Source: Cyclobacteriaceae bacterium
Lineage (GTDB): Bacteria > Bacteroidota > Bacteroidia > Cytophagales > Cyclobacteriaceae
DNA length: 64,000 nt
Assembly: GCA_947458585.1 (NCBI GenBank)
Contig: CANGYY010000002.1
Coordinates: forward strand, 1-64,000
Reading direction: 5' to 3'
The notes under the pieces were generated by a model. It made no database searches. It was not told where the DNA came from and was given only the letters and a program-made list of their open reading frames with translations. A program made the translations under genes and the position numbers. Of the stretch, positions 21,031-30,009 are shown piece after piece. Numbering within the stretch: position 1 is the first letter of the stretch; each line of letters starts with the position of its first letter.

Positions 21031-21138
21031 GTAGAAAAACAGCGACCCTTAGGTTTTGTTTGGGATTTCGATCTAGGAAAAAGATTGGATTTTTTACCTT
21101 CAAGGAAACTTTGGAGGCTTACCCATGGTTTCTCCCGC

Positions 21139-22224
21139 ATGAACCCAAGTATCAAACAACTTTTCCCCTTCCTGAAGGACTCCCAACTGGGAACTCCCTT
21201 CCTCATTGCTGGACCATGCAGTGTGGAAACCCCCGAGCAATTGGATTCCACAGTAAGCCAATTGGCGGCAAATGGAGTATCCCTCATCCGGGCAGGAGTC
21301 TGGAAGCCTCGAACGCGTCCCAATGGCTTTGAAGGTCTGGGAAGCCTAGCATTGCCTTGGCTTCAGGAAGCAAAGAAAAAGTACGGGGTAAAGGTGGCGG
21401 TAGAGGTTGCGACCGCCTACCATGTGGAGGAGGCGCTCAAGGCTGAAATGGACGTACTTTGGATCGGGGCACGCTCCACTGTCAATCCATTTACCGTGAC
21501 CGAGATTGCAGAAAGTTTACAGGGTGTAGACATTCCTGTTTTGGTCAAAAACCCCATCAATCCCGATTTGGGACTTTGGCTTGGTGCGATTGAGCGATTG
21601 GAGCAAGTAGGTTTGTCCAAAATAGGAGCCATACACCGAGGATTTTCGAATTTCAGAGATACGGTACACCGAAATTCTCCCATGTGGGAATTGCCGATTG
21701 AATTTAGGACCCTTCGCCCCGAACTGGTCCTGATCAATGACCCCAGCCATATCTCTGGGAAGCGCTCCTTAGTAAAGGGCATCGCACAGCATGCTTTAGA
21801 CCTCAACTTTGATGGCTTGATGATTGAATCCCATACCAATCCTGATGCTGCTTGGACCGATGCGGCCCAGCAACTAAGCCCAGCAGATTTGAACCATCTG
21901 ATGCGTGAATTGGTATCGAGAAATGGAGAATTCAAGCCTCAAAATGGGCAAAATCCATTGGATGAGATTCGACAACAAATTGATGAAGTAGACCGGGCTC
22001 TCCTTGAGGTATTGAGCAGAAGGATGCACTTGGTTGAAAAAATTGGGACGTACAAAAAGGAAAACAATGTAGCCGCCTTTCAATTGGAGCGTTGGCAAGA
22101 AATCTTGAATAGCCGACCCAATTGGGCAAAAGCCTTTCAGTTAAATCCGGATGTTGTGACGGAACTGTTCCGGATCATTCACCAAGAATCCATCCGGAAG
22201 CAAACGGAGTGGATAGATGAATAA
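21139..22224 (+). CDS. Bifunctional DAHP synthase / chorismate mutase, first copy
   Basis: The N-terminal domain (to about residue 260) is a type I-beta-like 3-deoxy-7-phosphoheptulonate synthase that condenses PEP and erythrose 4-phosphate. Motifs are IAGPCSVETPEQ, RAGVWKPRTRPNGFEGLG, VLVKNPINPDLGLWLGA, AIHRGFS and LINDPSHISGKR. An AroQ-type chorismate mutase domain follows (about 272-361; PLDEIRQQIDEVDRALLEVL). ATG 21139 gives the best start (MNPSIKQLFPFL); the frame is open 18 codons further. A clearly diverged paralogue of the same architecture lies at 22643-23740. This copy is outside the attenuator and may have different regulation or feedback response. Confidence 0.93.
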   Translation: MNPSIKQLFPFLKDSQLGTPFLIAGPCSVETPEQLDSTVSQLAANGVSLIRAGVWKPRTRPNGFEGLGSLALPWLQEAKKKYGVKVAVEVATAYHVEEALKAEMDVLWIGARSTVNPFTVTEIAESLQGVDIPVLVKNPINPDLGLWLGAIERLEQVGLSKIGAIHRGFSNFRDTVHRNSPMWELPIEFRTLRPELVLINDPSHISGKRSLVKGIAQHALDLNFDGLMIESHTNPDAAWTDAAQQLSPADLNHLMRELVSRNGEFKPQNGQNPLDEIRQQIDEVDRALLEVLSRRMHLVEKIGTYKKENNVAAFQLERWQEILNSRPNWAKAFQLNPDVVTELFRIIHQESIRKQTEWIDE

Positions 22225-22439
22225 GTCCTAGAAGGAGCCCAAACCTAATTGAAGTTTGTATTCTTGGAAAGAACCTGTAGAAGAGTCTTGTTAAAAAAAA
22301 TAAATGGGAACTATTATTCCTAATTATAGAATAAAAACAGAATTTTATTTTAAATACAGAGTTTCATTCCTGTCAAATTAGAATTAATTAAAAGTTAGCC
22401 TCGATTTATTGAAGAAATGACAATAGTATTGGGTTTAAA

Positions 22440-22447
22440 TAATTTTG
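22440..22447 (+). promoter_or_regulatory. Candidate -7 element of the Phe/Tyr attenuated operon
   Basis: TAATTTTG is an exact TAnnTTTG match, 31 bases before the leader-peptide ATG at 22479. The surrounding 200 bases are strongly AT-rich. I find no good TTG at the -33 spacing, so promoter strength or an activator is open. Confidence 0.6.
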
Positions 22448-22478
22448 TTTTTAAGAAATAGCGGTTTACATTTACAAC

Positions 22479-22574
22479 ATGTTCATCACAGCAGCGATCT
22501 ATTTTACTTTCTTTTACTTTTACTTTCGACCTGAAAATCGAATCGGAGCTGTGTATTGTCTAGCCAAAAACTAA
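22479..22574 (+). CDS. Phe/Tyr leader peptide (31 residues) of the attenuator
   Basis: A 31-codon frame begins at ATG 22479 and ends TAA 22572-22574. It holds six Phe and four Tyr codons, nine of the ten within codons 2-16. The core at codons 8-16 reads YFTFFYFYF, which is far beyond chance. No Trp codon is present, matching an operon that makes Phe and Tyr. Codons 21-24 (R-I-G-A, CGAATCGGAGCT) are at the same time the antiterminator strand that pairs with the terminator. A ribosome short of charged tRNA-Phe or tRNA-Tyr would stall at 22500-22526. The peptide itself is probably without function. The layout matches E. coli pheL, but the sequence is unrelated. Confidence 0.85.
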   Translation: MFITAAIYFTFFYFYFRPENRIGAVYCLAKN

Positions 22575-22617
22575 AAACAAATAATCATCACAAAGCCCGA
22601 TTCGAAAGAGTCGGGCT
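22490..22617 (+). promoter_or_regulatory. Ribosome-mediated transcription attenuator (segments 1-4)
   Basis: Four mutually exclusive RNA segments are visible. Segment 1 (22490-22498, AGCAGCGAT) can pair with segment 2 in 7 of 9 positions. Segment 2 (22539-22550, CGAATCGGAGCT) pairs with segment 3 (22594-22604, AGCCCGATTCG) in 11 base pairs with one bulged A; this is the antiterminator. Segment 3 also pairs with segment 4 (22608-22617, GAGTCGGGCT) to form the terminator. Stalling on the Phe/Tyr codons at 22500-22526 would cover segment 1 and free segment 2, so 2:3 forms and the operon is read. Smooth translation lets 1:2 and 3:4 form and stops transcription. Confidence 0.85.
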
Positions 22618-22623
22618 TTTTTT
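22594..22623 (+). terminator. Intrinsic terminator of the Phe/Tyr attenuator
   Basis: A 10-bp stem (AGCCCGATTC with GAGTCGGGCT, one G-U pair) closes a GAAA-type loop and is followed by seven T residues to 22623. It stands between the leader peptide and the DAHP synthase ATG at 22643, not after a gene, which is the mark of an attenuator rather than an end-of-operon terminator. Confidence 0.9.
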
Positions 22624-22642
22624 ATTTAAACCCTTCAATCCC

Positions 22643-23740
22643 ATGAAGCCACACAAACAAATCAAAGACTGGGGACTTGGCCTTAGCAACCCAATGATCA
22701 TCGGAGGTCCTTGTTCCGCCGAAACACCAGAGCAGATCACTCAAATCTGCACCGAAATGAAGGATGCCCAAATCATTCCTCAGGTATTTCGCGCAGGTAT
22801 CTGGAAACCACGGACGCGACCAGGTTCTTTTGAAGGCGTTGGAGAGGAAGGTTTGAAGTGGATGGAGATTGTGCGCAATGAGCTCAATATCCCAATTACC
22901 GTGGAGGTTGGCAATGCTGCACACGTAGAAATGGCCCTGAAAAACCAAATCGAAATCCTTTGGATCGGTGCTCGCACCACGGTCAACCCCTTTGCTGTTC
23001 AGGAAATTGCAGAAGCACTACGGGGGGTAGACATCCCCGTCATGATCAAAAACCCCATGAATCCAGACCTAGAGCTTTGGATGGGGGCCTTGGAACGCAT
23101 GTATGCCGTAGGCATTACCAAACTGGCAGCCATTCACCGAGGATTTTCGGATGCTTATGACAAGCGTTACCGCAATAAGCCCAACTGGTCGATGCCCATT
23201 CACTTGAAGCGTGAGTGGACTGGTATGGAAGTGATCAACGACCCTTCACACATTGTGGGACGCAGAGATGGATTGCTAGAAGTAGCACAAAGCGCCATGA
23301 ATTTCGGTTTGGATGGCTTAATGATCGAAACCCACCACGATCCTGACCAAGCTTGGTCCGATGCCAAGCAGCAGGTAACCCCACGTCGCTTAAAGGAAAT
23401 GATTGATTCGATCGAATTCAAGCAGTCCTTGGAAAATACGCAGCCCAACGAGAAACTATTTGATCTCCGCCGCGCCATAGACCATTTGGATGACCAGCTT
23501 CTTAACATCTTACAAGAACGCTTTTCTTTAGTAGACCAAGTAGGTGCGCACAAACGAGAACACAACCTGACCGTATTTCAATCTGACCGATGGAAAGAGG
23601 TGATGGATTCCCGCACCGAAAAAGGAGTAAAAAAACAACTCAGCGAAAAATTCATGAAAGAGTTGCTCTATTGCATCCATGAGGAGTCTGTAAAGCGCCA
23701 AGAAAGACAGCTCCGAGAAGCAGATCCAATTAAAAAATAA
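22643..23740 (+). CDS. Bifunctional DAHP synthase / chorismate mutase, attenuated copy
   Basis: The 365-residue enzyme repeats the architecture of the gene at 21139. The DAHP synthase domain shows IIGGPCSAETPEQI, RAGIWKPRTRPGSFEGVG, VMIKNPMNPDLELWMGA, AIHRGFSDAYDKRYRNKPNW in part, and VINDPSHIVGRRDG. An AroQ chorismate mutase domain follows from about residue 269 (LFDLRRAIDHLDDQLLNIL). It catalyses the first step of the shikimate pathway and the conversion of chorismate to prephenate. ATG 22643 lies 20 bases after the attenuator T-tract; the frame is open 29 codons upstream, but that extension would run through the terminator hairpin. It is the first enzyme gene of the operon continuing to tyrA. 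Confidence 0.95.
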   Translation: MKPHKQIKDWGLGLSNPMIIGGPCSAETPEQITQICTEMKDAQIIPQVFRAGIWKPRTRPGSFEGVGEEGLKWMEIVRNELNIPITVEVGNAAHVEMALKNQIEILWIGARTTVNPFAVQEIAEALRGVDIPVMIKNPMNPDLELWMGALERMYAVGITKLAAIHRGFSDAYDKRYRNKPNWSMPIHLKREWTGMEVINDPSHIVGRRDGLLEVAQSAMNFGLDGLMIETHHDPDQAWSDAKQQVTPRRLKEMIDSIEFKQSLENTQPNEKLFDLRRAIDHLDDQLLNILQERFSLVDQVGAHKREHNLTVFQSDRWKEVMDSRTEKGVKKQLSEKFMKELLYCIHEESVKRQERQLREADPIKK

Positions 23741-23814
23741 ACAGAAACCTCTCCCTGCTATTCCAAGGATAGTAGGAAGGTTTACTACCTTTAACTCCTA
23801 GACCAAAGCGATCT

Positions 23815-24858
23815 GTGGAAACGGTACACTTCACAACTGACATTTGCAGTACCTTGAAAGAGGTGTTGCATGCACGCAACTATTCCAAATTGGTAGTGCT
23901 CACAGATGTGAACACCCAGCAGCATTGCCTTCCCTTGATTCAAGAAGTGCTTCCTTCTGACGCGGTGCTGATTACGGCACCTGCAGGGGAACAGTTCAAA
24001 ACATTGGAAACCTGCGCTACCATTTGGACCCAATTGACCGAATCGGTGCTGGACAGGCAAGCCCTGATGCTCAATTTAGGAGGTGGTGTAATTGGTGACA
24101 TGGGTGGATTTTGTGCCAGCGTCTACAAAAGAGGGATTCCCTTCATCACGATACCCACTACCCTACTCTCCCAAGTAGATGCCAGTGTGGGAGGTAAGTT
24201 GGGCATTGATTTTATGGGGTTAAAAAACCACCTAGGAGTATTCCAATTGCCAGAAACCGTACTCATTGACCCTAAATTTCTAGAGACGCTACCCCAGCGT
24301 GAGCTTCGCTCTGGATATGCTGAGGTACTCAAACATGGACTCATTCGTGATCTCGCCTTTTTCAGATCTCTACCCAGCAACCATTGGGAAAAACAAGACT
24401 GGGCGCGGGTTATTCGGCATTCGGTAGACATCAAAAAAGCAGTGGTAGAAGTAGATCCCAAAGAAGCTGGGGTGCGGAAAATCTTAAATTTCGGCCACAG
24501 CATTGGGCATGCCGTAGAATCCTTCTACTTAAACAGTCAAGAGCCCTTGCTCCATGGAGAAGCCATTGCATTAGGTATGATTACTGAAGGTTTTTTATCC
24601 TTCCAAAAAATCGGATTGAGCTTTGAGGAATTGAATGAACTTAGTACCAAGATGCTCACTATTTTCGGTAAGGTGAATTTAGATCCCAAAGATCTGGATG
24701 CCATTATAGACCTATGTGCTCAAGATAAAAAGAACGAAAGGACTACTCAACTGTTCACCTTACTCCCTTCCCTTGGAGACTGCAACTACAACATCCCGGT
24801 GACCCGAGAGGAAATCAAGCAGGCCATGCACTATTACCAGCAACTGCCTCAGGCCTAA
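23815..24858 (+). CDS. aroB: 3-dehydroquinate synthase
   Basis: AroB closes DAHP to 3-dehydroquinate using NAD and a divalent metal. The 347-residue product shows the NAD-binding GGGVIGDMGGFCASVYKRG region near residues 89-107 and IPTTLLSQVDASVGGKLGI with catalytic Lys. Metal ligands appear in LRSGYAEVLKHGLI, ILNFGHSIGHAVES (His-x3-His) and LLHGEAIALGM. The start is a GTG (23815), 74 bases after the preceding stop. The gap holds a short hairpin (about 23757-23780) with no T run, so read-through is expected. Second enzyme of the Phe/Tyr operon. Confidence 0.96.
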   Translation: METVHFTTDICSTLKEVLHARNYSKLVVLTDVNTQQHCLPLIQEVLPSDAVLITAPAGEQFKTLETCATIWTQLTESVLDRQALMLNLGGGVIGDMGGFCASVYKRGIPFITIPTTLLSQVDASVGGKLGIDFMGLKNHLGVFQLPETVLIDPKFLETLPQRELRSGYAEVLKHGLIRDLAFFRSLPSNHWEKQDWARVIRHSVDIKKAVVEVDPKEAGVRKILNFGHSIGHAVESFYLNSQEPLLHGEAIALGMITEGFLSFQKIGLSFEELNELSTKMLTIFGKVNLDPKDLDAIIDLCAQDKKNERTTQLFTLLPSLGDCNYNIPVTREEIKQAMHYYQQLPQA

Positions 24859-24876
24859 CCTTAGCCATTTTAACGC

Positions 24877-26115
24877 ATGCAACTCCTTAGGCTTACGCAA
24901 AAAACTGAATTTTCCGAGGTATTCCTACCCCTACCCTCCTCCAAGAGTGAATCGAATCGAGCCTTGGTCATCGATGCCTTGACAGACGGGGAAAATATAC
25001 TGAGTAACCTGGCTGAAGCTCGTGATACGCAAACCATGATTCGGCTCCTACAAACCAACCCAGCCGTATTTGATGTGCTGGACGCAGGAACGACAATGCG
25101 GTTTTTGACAGCATTCGTCGCTGTGACCAATCAGCAAAAGGTAATGACAGGCACTCCACGGATGTGCCAGCGCCCCATCGGTATTTTGGTGGATGCCTTA
25201 CGAAGCCTAGGAGCAGAAATACATTACTTGGGTACCGAAGGCTATCCCCCACTTGCGGTGCAAGGCTTACCTTCCCAACTCACCGAAAAAATCCGGATCC
25301 GCGGCGATGTTTCCAGCCAGTACATTTCGGCAATCTTGATGATTGCTCCGCTTTTACCTTTAGGGTTGGAACTGGAAGTGGAAGGGAAGGTCGGAAGCCG
25401 AACCTACATCGAAATGACCCTAGAACTGATGGCACAGTTTGGAATTGTGTACAGCTGGAATGGAAATACGATCAAAATCACCCCTCAGCCTTACCGGGCT
25501 ACCCACTTTGCTGTAGAGAGCGATTGGTCGGGAGCGAGCTATTGGTTTAGCTTGTTGGCCTGTGCAGATTCGGGTTCCTTTTTTCTAAAAGGGCTAAAAG
25601 AAAAGAGTTTGCAGGGGGATGCTGCTATCGTAGAAATCATGGCACATTTGGGCATCCGAAGCACTTTTCAGGAAGGTGGACTATTGCTCGAAAAGCAAGT
25701 GGTCACGGGCCTAAAGAGTTGGGATTTTACCCATTGTCCTGATTTGGCACAAACCGTGGCCGTGACCTGTGCCATTTTGGGACAAAATGCCGTATTCACG
25801 GGATTGGAAAGCCTACGAATTAAAGAAACAGATCGAATCCATGCCTTGCAGCAGGAACTGGCAAAGTTTCATGCCGAGTTACGGGAAATTTCTCCCGACA
25901 CCTTCCAGGTGATCCCTTCAGTGACCATGCCGCGACGGGTGCAAATTCACACCTATGAAGATCACCGCATGGCCATGGCCTTTATGCCTTTGGTGACCAA
26001 AACCGAATTATGGATTGAAGATCCAGAAGTAGTCAATAAATCCTATCCTAGTTTTTGGACGCAGGTAGAGCAGGCCGGCATTCGCCAAGAAATTCTTTCC
26101 CAAAATTTGCTATGA
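24877..26115 (+). CDS. aroA: 3-phosphoshikimate 1-carboxyvinyltransferase (EPSP synthase)
   Basis: AroA transfers the enolpyruvyl group of PEP to shikimate 3-phosphate. The 412-residue product has LPSSKSESNRALV with the substrate-binding Lys-Ser, DAGTTMRFLTAFVAV (family NAGTAxR; Asp replaces Asn here), RGDVSSQYISAILM, ESDWSGASYW, the RIKETDRIHAL motif and EDHRMAMAFM. The form with D-A-G-T-T-M-R-F-L is typical of the Bacteroidota branch. It begins 18 bases after aroB and overlaps pheA by four bases. Inhibitor sensitivity cannot be read from this. Confidence 0.96.
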   Translation: MQLLRLTQKTEFSEVFLPLPSSKSESNRALVIDALTDGENILSNLAEARDTQTMIRLLQTNPAVFDVLDAGTTMRFLTAFVAVTNQQKVMTGTPRMCQRPIGILVDALRSLGAEIHYLGTEGYPPLAVQGLPSQLTEKIRIRGDVSSQYISAILMIAPLLPLGLELEVEGKVGSRTYIEMTLELMAQFGIVYSWNGNTIKITPQPYRATHFAVESDWSGASYWFSLLACADSGSFFLKGLKEKSLQGDAAIVEIMAHLGIRSTFQEGGLLLEKQVVTGLKSWDFTHCPDLAQTVAVTCAILGQNAVFTGLESLRIKETDRIHALQQELAKFHAELREISPDTFQVIPSVTMPRRVQIHTYEDHRMAMAFMPLVTKTELWIEDPEVVNKSYPSFWTQVEQAGIRQEILSQNLL

Positions 26116-26930
26116 TTGTTGCCATCCAAGGAATTTCAGGGTCTTTTCACCACCAAGTAGCCCTCTTAAATTTTGGAGAGCAGGCCCAAGTTCTCCCCTT
26201 TCTCACCTTTGAAGAGGTAGCCAAATCTGTTGCCTCTGGTACAGCAGACGTGGGGGTGATGGCTATCGAAAACTCCATTGCAGGAGCGATATTGCCTAAT
26301 TACGACCTGATCGACCGCTACGAGCTCTCCATTTATGAAGAGTACTACTTGCCTATTTCCCATCATTTGATGGCTTTGCCAGGGCAATCCATCGCTGACC
26401 TCACCGAAGTTCGCTCCCACCCCATGGCCTTGCTCCAATGCAAGGCCTTTCTAGCACAGTGGCCCAAGATTCGGTTAATTGATGACCAAGACACTGCATC
26501 AGTAGCCAAAAGAATCCAAGAGGAGCAGCTCTTGGGTGTGGCAGCCATTGCCAGCGAAATTGCGGCAGCGAGTTATGGATTAGAAATTCTGGCACCACAG
26601 ATTCAAACGGTAAAGGATAATTTCACCCGATTTATCTTCCTTACTCGAGAAAAACCCAAAACTCAAGAAGAAGCTAACAAGGTCTCTTTCAAAATTACCA
26701 TCCGCAATGAAGCTGGAGGATTGGCTAAACTCCTCACGATGCTAGCCGGAAAAAATTTGAATTTGAGCAAAATTCAATCCATCCCACTCATGGACAAACC
26801 TTGGGATTATGCCTTTTTTATTGATGCAGAATTCAAAGACCCTACTTCCTATGAGGAAGCTGTAGCACAGATGAGCCGGGAGTTTGGGGAATTGAAAATT
26901 TTTGGGGAATACCGAAGTAGAAAAGGATGA
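26112..26930 (+). CDS. pheA: Prephenate dehydratase with ACT domain
   Basis: PheA converts prephenate to phenylpyruvate, the Phe-specific step. The 272-residue product is monofunctional, as expected because chorismate mutase is carried by the DAHP synthase. The catalytic domain has IAIENSIAGAILPNYDLI and the VKDNFTRFIFL motif with the essential Thr-Arg-Phe. The C-terminal ACT domain (about 195-270) shows RNEAGGLAKLL and LNLSKIQSIPL. The classic Phe-binding ESRP is here QSIP, so allosteric inhibition may be weak or different. ATG 26112 overlaps the aroA stop by four bases. Confidence 0.96.
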   Translation: MIVAIQGISGSFHHQVALLNFGEQAQVLPFLTFEEVAKSVASGTADVGVMAIENSIAGAILPNYDLIDRYELSIYEEYYLPISHHLMALPGQSIADLTEVRSHPMALLQCKAFLAQWPKIRLIDDQDTASVAKRIQEEQLLGVAAIASEIAAASYGLEILAPQIQTVKDNFTRFIFLTREKPKTQEEANKVSFKITIRNEAGGLAKLLTMLAGKNLNLSKIQSIPLMDKPWDYAFFIDAEFKDPTSYEEAVAQMSREFGELKIFGEYRSRKG

Positions 26931-28081
26931 AGGGATTTGCAACACGTATTGAAGGCGTAGAGGAGTACTACTTTTCAGCCAAACTTCGAGAAGTCAGCAG
27001 GCTCCTTGCAGAAGGAAAACCTGTATTGAACTTGGGGATAGGGTCACCCGACTTAAGTCCTGATCGCAGCGTAATCGATGCCTTGAAGATCACCGCTGAA
27101 AACGAACAAACGCATGGCTACCAAGGCTACCAAGGCATTCCCGAATTACGGACGGCTATGGCCCACTATTATGCCAGCGAATTTGGGGTGCAGCTGGATC
27201 CAAACCGGGAAATCCTCCCGCTGATGGGATCCAAGGAAGGAATCTTTCACATCAGCATGGCTTTTTTGAATTCTGGAGATCAGGTCCTTATTCCAAATCC
27301 AGGCTATCCCACCTACACAGCCGTTACCCAACTGCTTGGGGCAAATCCCATTTACTACAACTTGGATTTGAGTAGACAGGGTCGACCTAATTTGGAGGAC
27401 CTTGAGCTTTTGGACTTGAGTCGAGTCAAACTGATGTGGATCAATTACCCACACATGCCAACAGGGGCTCCTGGCTCAGAGGAAGTGTTGGCAGAGCTCA
27501 TTGCTTTTGCGCAGCGGCATGACATCCTAATTGTGCATGACAACCCCTACAGCCACATCCTAAATCCGAATCCTAAGAGTTTGCTGGCCCTACCTGGTGG
27601 AATGGAAGTAGGCTTGGAACTCAACTCTCTCTCCAAAACTTTCAATATCCCTGGCTGGCGTGTAGGGATGCTCTGTGGTAAAGCAGAATGGGTGAATGCA
27701 GCACTCAAAGTCAAATCCAATATGGACTCCGGCATGTTTCTGGGTCTTCAAAAAGGAGCTACCGCTGCACTTTTACTTGGAAAACCCTGGTTTGAAAGAC
27801 AGAATGAGATTTATGCCAGTCGGCGAAAGCTGGTTTGGACCCTTGCCGACCACTTGGGATTGACCTATGATCGGGAAGCTGCAGGCTTGTTTGTCTGGTG
27901 CCGCGTACCGGCAGGCACTTCAGCAGAAGCCTTAGTTGACCAGCTGCTTTACGAAAAAAACATCTTCATTACTCCAGGGAAAATTTTTGGATCAGAGGGA
28001 AACGACTATGTCCGCATCTCCCTTTGCCTCCAAGAATTCAAAATCCTAGAAGCTATCAACCGCATCAAACCTAGCCACTAA
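26927..28081 (+). CDS. Pyridoxal-phosphate aminotransferase class I/II (aromatic or prephenate type)
   Basis: The 384-residue enzyme is a fold-type I aminotransferase. LNLGIGSPDL and the HGYQGYQGIPELR segment are near the start, NPGYPTYTAV in the middle, and the PLP Lys is K237 in NSLSKTFNIPGWRVGM. The partner Asp is in LIVHDNPYSHI and the C-terminal substrate Arg in DYVRISLCL. Its place between pheA and tyrA, with four-base and one-base junctions, implies transamination of phenylpyruvate, 4-hydroxyphenylpyruvate or prephenate. Sequence alone does not separate it from aspartate or diaminopimelate-type transaminases. Confidence 0.93.
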   Translation: MKGFATRIEGVEEYYFSAKLREVSRLLAEGKPVLNLGIGSPDLSPDRSVIDALKITAENEQTHGYQGYQGIPELRTAMAHYYASEFGVQLDPNREILPLMGSKEGIFHISMAFLNSGDQVLIPNPGYPTYTAVTQLLGANPIYYNLDLSRQGRPNLEDLELLDLSRVKLMWINYPHMPTGAPGSEEVLAELIAFAQRHDILIVHDNPYSHILNPNPKSLLALPGGMEVGLELNSLSKTFNIPGWRVGMLCGKAEWVNAALKVKSNMDSGMFLGLQKGATAALLLGKPWFERQNEIYASRRKLVWTLADHLGLTYDREAAGLFVWCRVPAGTSAEALVDQLLYEKNIFITPGKIFGSEGNDYVRISLCLQEFKILEAINRIKPSH

Positions 28082-28082
28082 C

Positions 28083-28931
28083 ATGAAAAAAATACACCTT
28101 GTAGGATTGGGCCTCTTGGGAGGATCCTTTGCCCTTGCTGCCAGACAGAAATTTCCAGAATTGCAGTTGTCCGGTCAGGATGCTAATTCGCAGCACCTCC
28201 AAGATGCGCTGGATTTAGGAATCATTAGTGTTTCCAAGTCCATTCCGGATGCAGATACAGATTTAGTGATTTTAGCTACTCCTGCAGACACCTTGGGGGA
28301 TTTATTGGTCCAAACCTTGGCACAAATTGGTCCTGAAACCCTAGTCTTTGACTTAGGATCCACCAAGGCCAAGCTGTGCAGTTTGGTAGCTAGCCACCCC
28401 AAGCGCTCCCAATACCTAGCTGCACACCCCATAGCAGGCACGGAATATTCTGGCCCCAAGGCAGCAGATGCTGGGCTCTTGGATAGAAAGGTGATGATTC
28501 TCTGTGAACTGGAAAAAACGGATTTACACCTGAAGGAAAAAGCCTATCGCCTATTTGATGCGCTGAACTTAAAGCTTCGGTTTATGGATCCAGCTGAACA
28601 CGACCGCCACTTGGCTTATGTATCTCACCTCTCCCACTTGACTTCCTTTATGTTGGGAAAAACCGTACTCCAAAAAATGGAAGACGAAAAAAACATCTTT
28701 GATATGGCGGGTTCGGGTTTTTCTTCAACCGTTCGTCTAGCCAAGTCTAGCCCCGAAATGTGGGCGCCCATTTTTCTTGAAAACAAAGACAATGTCCTTG
28801 CTGCTTTGGATGGATACATCGCCAACCTGAGTGCATTCCGAGAAAAAATAGCCAAAGAGGAAGGGGAAAGTTTGAAAAAAGAAATGGAAGAAATCAATGT
28901 TATCCGAGGTATTCTAGATTTCGGTAAGTAA
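28083..28931 (+). CDS. tyrA: Prephenate dehydrogenase
   Basis: TyrA oxidatively decarboxylates prephenate to 4-hydroxyphenylpyruvate, the Tyr-specific step. The N-terminal Rossmann fold has VGLGLLGGSFALAAR (residues 5-19). Catalytic-domain markers are DLGSTKAKLC, AAHPIAGTEYSGPKAAD with the essential His, and HDRHLAYVSHLSHL with the second His pair, then DMAGSGFSSTVRLA. The 282-residue length is that of the plain enzyme with no ACT or mutase domain. It follows the aminotransferase by one base and closes the attenuated operon. Confidence 0.96.
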   Translation: MKKIHLVGLGLLGGSFALAARQKFPELQLSGQDANSQHLQDALDLGIISVSKSIPDADTDLVILATPADTLGDLLVQTLAQIGPETLVFDLGSTKAKLCSLVASHPKRSQYLAAHPIAGTEYSGPKAADAGLLDRKVMILCELEKTDLHLKEKAYRLFDALNLKLRFMDPAEHDRHLAYVSHLSHLTSFMLGKTVLQKMEDEKNIFDMAGSGFSSTVRLAKSSPEMWAPIFLENKDNVLAALDGYIANLSAFREKIAKEEGESLKKEMEEINVIRGILDFGK

Positions 28932-28995
28932 GTATTCGAGCCGGTCTAGGTTAACTTGGATAACCTGTTAGGTTGGGTTGGTAGAATATACTTAC
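28928..28995 (+). other. Inverted repeat after tyrA
   Basis: GTAAGTAT (28928-28935, overlapping the tyrA stop) and ATACTTAC (28988-28995) are perfect complements. They enclose a second pair, AGGTTA/TAACCT. The structure could end the operon or protect its 3' end, but the T-tract after it is weak. Confidence 0.4.
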
Positions 28996-29040
28996 TCTAA
29001 AATCTTTTCTTAACTTGACTACTCATTCAATCCCATTTCC

Positions 29041-30009
29041 ATGCTACGATACCTTTTAGTTTTTCTTATACTGGGCTCCCTTCAAGCTGAAGCTCAGGAT
29101 CTTTGGACTGCTGTATCTACTAAAACCGAAGCGACTGCTCGGCACGAAAGTTCTTTTGTGGCGGTTGGAGACAAACTGTATGCAGTAGGTGGTCGAGGAG
29201 TACGCCCTGTGGAGGAATTTGACCCCCAAAGCAACACTTGGACTAAGGTGGCAGATGCTCCCATGGAAATCCACCATTTTCAGGCCATCTCCTTTCAAGA
29301 AGAACTCTGGATTGTAGGGGCGATGACGGGCAACTACCCGCATGAAACTCCAATTCCAAACATTCTGATCTTTAATCCCAAAACCAAAGCCTGGCGAAAG
29401 GGACCTGCACTTCCAAAAAATCGAGAAAGAGGTTCTGCAGGAGTGGTGGTCCGACAAAATAAAATTTACCTAGTTTGCGGAATCCAGGACGGGCACTTCG
29501 ATGGCTTTGTACGCTGGTTTGATGAGCTAGACCCAAAAACAGGAACTTGGAGATCCCTGCCAAGTGCACCAAGAGCAAGAGACCATGTGAGTGCCGCCTT
29601 AGTAGAGGGCAAGCTCTACCTTGCAGGTGGACGAACCTCCTACGCCAAAATTGGAAAGGTACTCGAACTAACCAATAAGGAGGTGGATGTTTTTGATTTT
29701 AAGACAGAAACCTGGTCTACTTTGGAAACCGAGCTTCCTACGCTGCGTGCAGGAAACTCCAATTTGGGCATTGGCCCTTACTTGGTAGTGATGAATGGCG
29801 AAAGTTCAGCACAAACTCCCGCTCATGCAGAGGTAGAGGTCCTCGATACACGAAGCAATACTTGGAGCAAGCTACCCAACCTACTACAGGGCCGACACGG
29901 CACGGGTACCGCCTATTTAAATGGAAAAATATGGGTTCATGCAGGTTCTGCCAATCGAGGTGGAGGTCCCGAGCTCACCACTATGGAAGTGCTGGAGTGG
30001 AAGAAATAA
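29041..30009 (+). CDS. Exported Kelch-repeat beta-propeller protein
   Basis: The 322-residue protein has a signal peptide (MLRYLLVFLILGSLQAEA) followed by about six Kelch repeats recognisable by Gly-Gly pairs and spaced Tyr/Trp. Examples are KLYAVGGRGVRPVEEFDP, ELWIVGAMTG, KIYLVCGIQDG, KLYLAGGRTS and the closing KIWVHAGSANRGG. No enzyme residues are apparent; galactose-oxidase-type copper ligands are not seen. It is probably a periplasmic or surface binding protein, possibly for a carbohydrate. It stands alone between the aromatic operon and an amino-acid permease. Confidence 0.88.
   Translation: MLRYLLVFLILGSLQAEAQDLWTAVSTKTEATARHESSFVAVGDKLYAVGGRGVRPVEEFDPQSNTWTKVADAPMEIHHFQAISFQEELWIVGAMTGNYPHETPIPNILIFNPKTKAWRKGPALPKNRERGSAGVVVRQNKIYLVCGIQDGHFDGFVRWFDELDPKTGTWRSLPSAPRARDHVSAALVEGKLYLAGGRTSYAKIGKVLELTNKEVDVFDFKTETWSTLETELPTLRAGNSNLGIGPYLVVMNGESSAQTPAHAEVEVLDTRSNTWSKLPNLLQGRHGTGTAYLNGKIWVHAGSANRGGGPELTTMEVLEWKK

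Follow-up and report, generated by a model that had tools for sequence, protein, structure and literature searches.

The 418-nucleotide (nt) gap in front of the aromatic amino-acid operon of a Cyclobacteriaceae bacterium very probably holds a ribosome-mediated transcription attenuator that senses charged tRNA-Phe and tRNA-Tyr, a reading to which we give a probability of about 0.93 from the comparison of sequences. The DNA analysed (the window) is a stretch of 64,000 nt, contig CANGYY010000002.1 positions 1-64,000, and all coordinates refer to that whole stretch. On its + strand a second gene for 3-deoxy-D-arabino-heptulosonate 7-phosphate synthase-chorismate mutase (DAHPS-CM; 21085-22224) is followed by the gap and then by aroF (also DAHPS-CM), aroB, aroA, pheA, aat and tyrA, and the gap contains a TAATTTTG box, a 31-codon open reading frame (ORF), MFITAAIYFTFFYFYFRPENRIGAVYCLAKN, and an intrinsic terminator. 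A preliminary description of this DNA had proposed a leader-peptide attenuator here, and our comparisons uphold it: the leader is found in 69 of 70 loci, leaders of the same layout occur elsewhere, and their codons match the operon. The ORF, the helices, their conservation, a rule of spacing and the correspondence between codons and operon are established by these comparisons.

The leader ORF (22479..22574, + strand) holds six Phe and four Tyr codons, just as first described, and its sensing run, YFTFFYFYF, occupies codons 8-16 (22500..22526, + strand). In the 420 nt upstream of the gene, an ORF in which at least seven of 12 residues are Phe or Tyr arises in 1 of 1000 dinucleotide shuffles, and such an ORF together with a terminator in 0 of 300. 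To follow its conservation we scanned named genomes with the DAHPS-CM protein and obtained 78 loci, from which L068 (without upstream sequence) and the distant L072-L079 were left out of the leader scan, so that 69 loci and the window make up the 70. L009 is counted among the orthologous loci that hold the leader after correction of its gene start, and in L034 just 195 nt lie between the gene and the contig end. The source titles are mostly Algoriphagus, with Aquiflexum, Cognataquiflexum, Mariniradius, Litoribacter and variously labelled metagenome bins as well. The alignment of the 66 distinct leader sequences (A1) shows Phe9, Tyr13, Phe14, Tyr15 and Phe16 unchanged in all 66, and at codon 8 it has Tyr in 56, Trp in 6 and Phe in 4. 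We also observed that some synonymous codons of the run are nearly fixed, all 66 sequences having TTT at codons 9 and 16, and 60 having TTC at codon 11; no pairing is assigned to them.

Four strands on the + strand would provide the switch. Strand 1 (22487..22498), the putative anti-antiterminator, pairs with 22542-22553 (87.4% of the cells of A1 paired); strand 2 (22538..22550), which forms the antiterminator on its 5' side and is part of the leader ORF, pairs with 22594-22605, with A22547 bulged (98.2% of cells paired); strand 3 (22594..22605) is common to antiterminator and terminator; and the intrinsic terminator (22592..22623) consists of the stem 22592-22603/22608-22619 and a run of seven T at 22617-22623 (99.1% of cells paired). 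The strong terminator and T run noted earlier before the DAHPS-CM gene are confirmed: the 3:4 hairpin reaches -19.9 kcal/mol, its stem is the longest among five terminator-like sites in 22200-29100, and 19 nt separate the end of the T run from the aroF ATG. The antiterminator had been described as an 11-bp helix with one bulge whose 5' strand was 22539-22550; the bulged helix stands, and its extent is corrected to 12 pairs (22538-22546 and 22548-22550 with 22594-22605; -19.2 kcal/mol including flanking pairs). Likewise, the strand said to mask it in 7 of 9 positions at 22490-22498 is better than claimed, since the 1:2 helix has ten pairs (22487-22492/22548-22553 and 22495-22498/22542-22545) around a 2x2 internal loop, the region amounting to -13.9 kcal/mol. 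In the lowest-energy fold the whole leader RNA forms 1:2 plus 3:4 (-34.1 kcal/mol). The antiterminator 2:3 and the terminator 3:4 are mutually exclusive and both are kept across A1, 1:2 less strictly. The third base of Gly23, which is the bulged base of 2:3, varies in A1 (A 59, T 5, C 2), while the third bases of the paired codons 21 and 22 are constant, and codon usage here is thus consistent with a constraint on the RNA.

A putative -7 promoter box of the Bacteroidota type (TAATTTTG, 22440..22447, + strand) fits the TAnnTTTG consensus quoted in PMC9723704, and the leader RNA would be expected to start near 22452-22456. Of 69 loci, 43 carry the exact motif 39-40 nt 5' of the start codon of the leader, whereas each of five control windows gives 0 or 1 of 67-69; the other 26 have no exact TAnnTTTG at that spot, many being one base off (TTATTTTG and similar). 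A second TAnnTTTG-like string occurs immediately 5' of the ATG, again in 43 of 69 loci.

We modelled the switch with a ribosome whose downstream edge lies 15 nt past the first base of the P site (an assumed footprint) and with helices across the ribosome forbidden (no-span model). The probability that strand 3 is paired with strand 2 is then 0.97 for P-site codons 1-15, 0.78 for codon 16, 0.43 for codon 17, 0.08 for codon 18 and 0 from codon 19 onwards, and the medians over the 66 sequences (codons 1-29) are nearly equal to the values for the window. By this model the switch point would be codon 16, the last Phe of the run, and the earlier suggestion that the run is placed so that a stall frees strand 2 is supported under the no-span assumption. 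From this arrangement we infer the start site, the translation of the leader, termination and the response to amino acids. Transcription would start just past the TAnnTTTG box and the leader ORF would be translated. A shortage of charged tRNA-Phe or tRNA-Tyr would stall the ribosome within codons 8-16, where it would mask strand 1 or sit upstream of strand 2, and strand 2 (22538-22550), left free, could pair with strand 3 (22594-22605) as this leaves RNA polymerase; with 2:3 formed no terminator would arise, and aroF-aroB-aroA-pheA-aat-tyrA would be transcribed. When both tRNAs are charged, the ribosome would proceed into codons 18-31, where it would mask strand 2 or be parked between strands 2 and 3, strand 3 would pair with strand 4, and transcription would end at about 22623. 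If the leader is not translated, the 1:2 hairpin and the terminator would form together.

The layout recurs with other sequences in Bacteroidia. A DAHPS-CM search gave matches in 163 of 194 genomes of the order, and 60 upstream regions were scanned for ORFs with at least six of 12 residues Phe or Tyr plus a terminator. Twelve Phe/Tyr leaders with a strong terminator were found, four of the window type (L082, L088, L140, L141), three of other sequence before aroF (L083, L084, L096) and five before pheA-aat-tyrA-aroF operons (L085, L086, L087, L128, L130); terminators were weak only in L090, L094, L115 and L116. At the class level, pheA (PF00800) was matched in 27 of 99 genomes, and 11 of the 20 upstream regions taken carry at least six of 12 Phe/Tyr and a terminator. 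With seven of 12, 10 of the 20 pass, compared with 0 on the antisense strand and 0.0 in shuffles, and among all 190 residue pairs Phe/Tyr is the best (10), the runner-up reaching 4. Within the order, PF00800 was matched in 75 of 98 genomes, and a leader was found in only 4 of the 40 upstream regions taken (L190, L194, L196, L198); many of these pheA frames are longer ones, perhaps fusions. The first leader scan skipped L194, L196 and L198, likely through a long-ORF mask under which leaders are lost where the DNA is G+C-rich. In L194 and L130, pheA is preceded in tandem by two different Phe/Tyr leader ORFs that have separate terminators, and the upstream region of one pheA leader holds a Flavo-1 RNA (RF01705, 78.6 bits, L149:498-575).

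To these leaders we applied an antiterminator test, for which 23 were entered by hand and 22 were analysable (L116 is without a terminator). In all 22 the antiterminator edge lies 5-14 nt past the last Phe or Tyr codon, the first paired base being mostly one further, and a stall anywhere in the run should therefore give read-through. The antiterminator beats shuffles at p <= 0.05 in 20 of 22 (exceptions L153, 0.08, and L190, 0.17). The stop codon is free in its place, which ranges between 35 nt downstream and 3 nt upstream of the antiterminator edge. A covariance model (R1) has matches at E < 1e-12 in 26 of 98 genomes of the family; false matches are inside the 61 of 98 counted at E <= 0.01, and the count is for this reason limited to the stricter level. 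Forty R1 matches were taken, of which 35 were testable, and all 35 have an antiterminator at p <= 0.05, with onset 6-16 nt past the run in 34 and 1 nt in L221; 21 of these loci (L203-L223) are plain homologs of the window leader, and L232 coincides with L083. No antiterminator duplex was found in L224 (run out of frame), L234, L235, L240 or L241. We considered the weak R1 matches (about 39-44 bits, L233-L242) as leaders, and 6 of the 10 hold a Phe/Tyr or Tyr leader; L234, L235, L240 and L241 do not and are rejected, L234 and L235 resembling ordinary terminators. In L224 the leader region is homologous, with its Phe/Tyr run in a different frame from the ATG found. The genome of the window has one strong R1 match, and its next match (31.7 bits) has no Phe/Tyr leader ORF nearby by the scan.

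The codon content of the runs follows the operon. The mean Tyr share of the run is 0.43 in the 25 leaders (that of the window among them) that precede pheA or an operon containing it, 0.43 in 10 other leaders before aroF, 0.73 in 4 leaders before aat and 0.91 in 6 leaders before the gene for phenylalanine 4-hydroxylase, phhA (pheA and aroF groups against aat and phhA groups: 0 of 100000 permutations). Tyr-rich leaders before aat include L229, L239 and L242 (aat-tyrA-aroF operons; the peptides of the latter two are similar) and L238/L245 (reverse strand), where leader MKYMNNIYYYYYRFKEIGVSGVCS precedes the operon aat-tyrA-phhA, all of it Tyr synthesis. In L237 a Tyr leader, MNICTTYYCYYYHSRTSLRMNGSSMCS, stands before phhA (PF00351), and five of 20 further phhA upstream regions hold a terminator behind a Tyr-rich leader (L257, L258, L259, L268, L269), the genome of the window not being one of them. 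At least 4 Tyr in 12 occur in 4 of these 20 regions (0.0 expected from shuffles), 4 Phe/Tyr in 5 of 20 (0.3 expected), and 4 Phe in none. The antiterminator test gives p <= 0.05 in 4 of 6 when applied to the five and L237 (L257, 0.056; L269, 0.13). These phhA leaders come from six genera of the order (L237/L278, L257/L282, L258/L281, L259/L277, L268/L279, L269/L280).

Four of the six phhA loci continue with hisH-like genes, and three of those four have His in or right after the run. Glutamine-amidotransferase genes (PF00117) follow phhA in L278, L281 and L282 and aroF in L246 and L247; we take them to be hisH from their position and their N-terminus. The next gene in L278 matches PF00977. In L279 the ORF 3' of phhA is hisH-like by likeness, and the gap of about 290 nt in L282 makes co-transcription there uncertain. 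His stands inside the run in 4 of 6 leaders with his genes downstream (the exceptions are L237, in which it is the next residue after the run, and L268, without His) and in 1 of 39 others (L190), downstream genes having been looked at in only a minority of those 39. These counts may hint that His codons track downstream his genes; they are suggestive only, and our confidence in the more general reading is the lower for it. In that reading, towards which we lean, Bacteroidota would possess one modular attenuator with codons re-tuned for each operon: Phe plus Tyr for aro/pheA/tyrA, mostly Tyr for aat-tyrA, nearly pure Tyr for phhA, often with His added where his genes follow, and a tandem pair before pheA in some genomes. 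If this is true, tRNA-Tyr would be sensed through a leader peptide in the Tyr versions, a kind of sensor of which no described example is known to us. Should the codons follow what the operon encodes, a leader in Bacteroidota would reveal which product its operon is regulated by.

Several results weigh against a ribosome-mediated attenuator. The preliminary description would have been refuted by orthologous regions with neither a Phe/Tyr frame nor covarying 2:3 and 3:4 helices; the frame is kept (69 of 70). The 2:3 helix is nearly invariant and has no double-sided changes in A1, and being too invariant within the family it leaves support beyond conservation to come from the other leaders, which include close relatives (L083/L084, L086/L087, L149/L151, L155/L158, L128/L130b), so they do not amount to 22 independent events. 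For 3:4, the 6 cells changed on both sides all belong to one pair, and 445 of 500 shuffles have as many pairs with double changes. For 1:2, 11 cells are changed on both sides and the covariation score is 0.145 (0.115 in shuffles, at most 0.105 when slid), both values exceeding all 500 shuffles; however, three pairs with double changes are not above chance (146 of 500 shuffles as high), sliding by -3 gives 14 double-changed cells rather than 11, and at one position 21 of the 66 rows lack the pair. When spanning is allowed in a plain equilibrium model, 2:3 also forms without a ribosome and re-forms from codon 28, and the off-state would consequently depend on timing, on the earlier formation of 1:2, or on the no-span assumption. 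The genome of the window also has a Trp leader, MKIIANNYWWWHSKTFLGKAQKAVA, with three consecutive Trp codons and a terminator before trpE (PF04715 match; L202:1297-1374), and its antiterminator is unsupported in the same test (p = 0.18).

Among other explanations, the one that survives best, itself very unlikely, is that the peptide is the active agent, through nascent-chain arrest that senses free Phe/Tyr or through a trans role, with a functional tail RIGAVYCLAKN. This tail is well conserved, and a leader peptide with a trans role has been reported (peTrpL, PMC7298713), but the RNA accounts for the tail where it overlaps strand 2, codon 27 tolerates replacement of Cys by Ser, Val, Met, Arg or Gln, 6 of 66 sequences have an ORF that ends at codon 30, and the other leaders end at widely differing places. 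Slightly less credible still is a regulatory RNA (a riboswitch, a T-box-like element or a protein-bound RNA) with an untranslated ORF. The alternative structures are strong and a protein could also select 2:3 or 3:4, but frame and residue identity are kept beyond the bases (Tyr as TAC or TAT, Phe as TTT or TTC at several run codons), the codon content of the other leaders follows the operon, and at gathering score Rfam has neither a match in the window nor a leader-family match in 18 related loci. The weakest proposal, in which the hairpin simply terminates the DAHPS-CM gene at 21085-22224 and the intergenic ORF is fortuitous, can appeal to the end of that gene 254 nt before the leader ATG and to T-rich DNA, which favours Phe codons, but we give it next to no credence, since the paralog lies within 1.5 kb in only 16 of 69 loci and the leader is kept regardless, a promoter-like box stands between paralog and leader, and the ORF, the run and the antiterminator, all conserved, are met again in leaders of other sequence.

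The leader-peptide attenuator that we favour most resembles pheL-pheA of E. coli (RF01859, Phe_leader), with which it shares a leader ORF with Phe codons, the logic of alternative 2:3 and 3:4 helices with a putative 1:2, and a terminator before a biosynthetic gene. The RF01859 model aligns end to end at 22491-22625, weakly (23.4 bits against a gathering score of 55, E 0.081, 301 bases), and the 24 permissive Rfam matches in the window are all below the gathering scores of their families. The element differs from pheL in having another peptide, both Phe and Tyr codons, and a strand 2 inside the ORF, which runs 15 codons past the sensing run; it also differs in its predicted control of six genes, from DAHPS to tyrA. 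The Trp leader RF00513 is of the same mechanism class with another sensed residue (window 14.7 bits, gathering 41).

We found little in print on the regulation of aromatic amino-acid synthesis in Bacteroidota. Leader-peptide systems were long held to be confined to few phyla; before their study of 2010 the authors of PMC2965389 knew of none outside Proteobacteria and Actinobacteria, an atypical erm leader aside, and leader-like small ORFs are mentioned for B. thetaiotaomicron (PMC7366714). The earlier remark that Proteobacteria alone have well-described Phe leaders has to be qualified, since for F. psychrophilum amino-acid operons are reported to show strong signs of leader-peptide attenuation, and a structured 5' element without an Rfam match is conserved upstream of pheA in Flavobacteriaceae (PMC9723704). 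That element and ours share phylum, pathway and the lack of an Rfam match, and the authors suggest leader-peptide attenuation for amino-acid operons. The passages on the element give no peptide, codon identity or structure, and an aroF-first version, the spacing rule and Tyr versions do not appear in them (PMC9723704). None of the titles and abstracts among the literature matches listed describes a Phe/Tyr or Tyr leader in Bacteroidota. The comparative attenuation study of Lopatovskaya et al. 2010, cited in PMC4833913, may contain Bacteroidota cases, and we therefore claim novelty for the specifics only: what we predict is a classical mechanism in a phylum in which it has hardly been described. 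If the prediction is true, transcription-translation coupling would become testable in a group that is described as being without Shine-Dalgarno sequences (PMC9723704).

One switch before six genes, from DAHP synthase to tyrA, had been proposed, and the operon is confirmed: all 62 related loci whose sequence extends more than 6.3 kb downstream have the same order (7 others end too soon). On the + strand, the first gene behind the switch is aroF (22643..23740), followed by aroB for 3-dehydroquinate synthase (23815..24858, TIGR01357 over cut-off), aroA for 5-enolpyruvylshikimate 3-phosphate synthase (24877..26115, TIGR01356 over cut-off), pheA for prephenate dehydratase with a weak ACT match (ORF as listed 26055..26930), aat for a class I aminotransferase (26927..28081) and tyrA for prephenate dehydrogenase (28083..28931). 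The domain of pheA begins at 26118, and its true start is probably nearer 26110. The paralog directly upstream, which the preliminary description does not name, is 44% identical to the aroF product; of the 69 related loci, 51 have none within 1.5 kb and 2 are too short. Between attenuator and aroF, L046 and L081 carry a repeat of about 90 bp that holds a string like ATGCGAGATTCCATGTGACC, and similar DNA lies upstream of aroF in L034.

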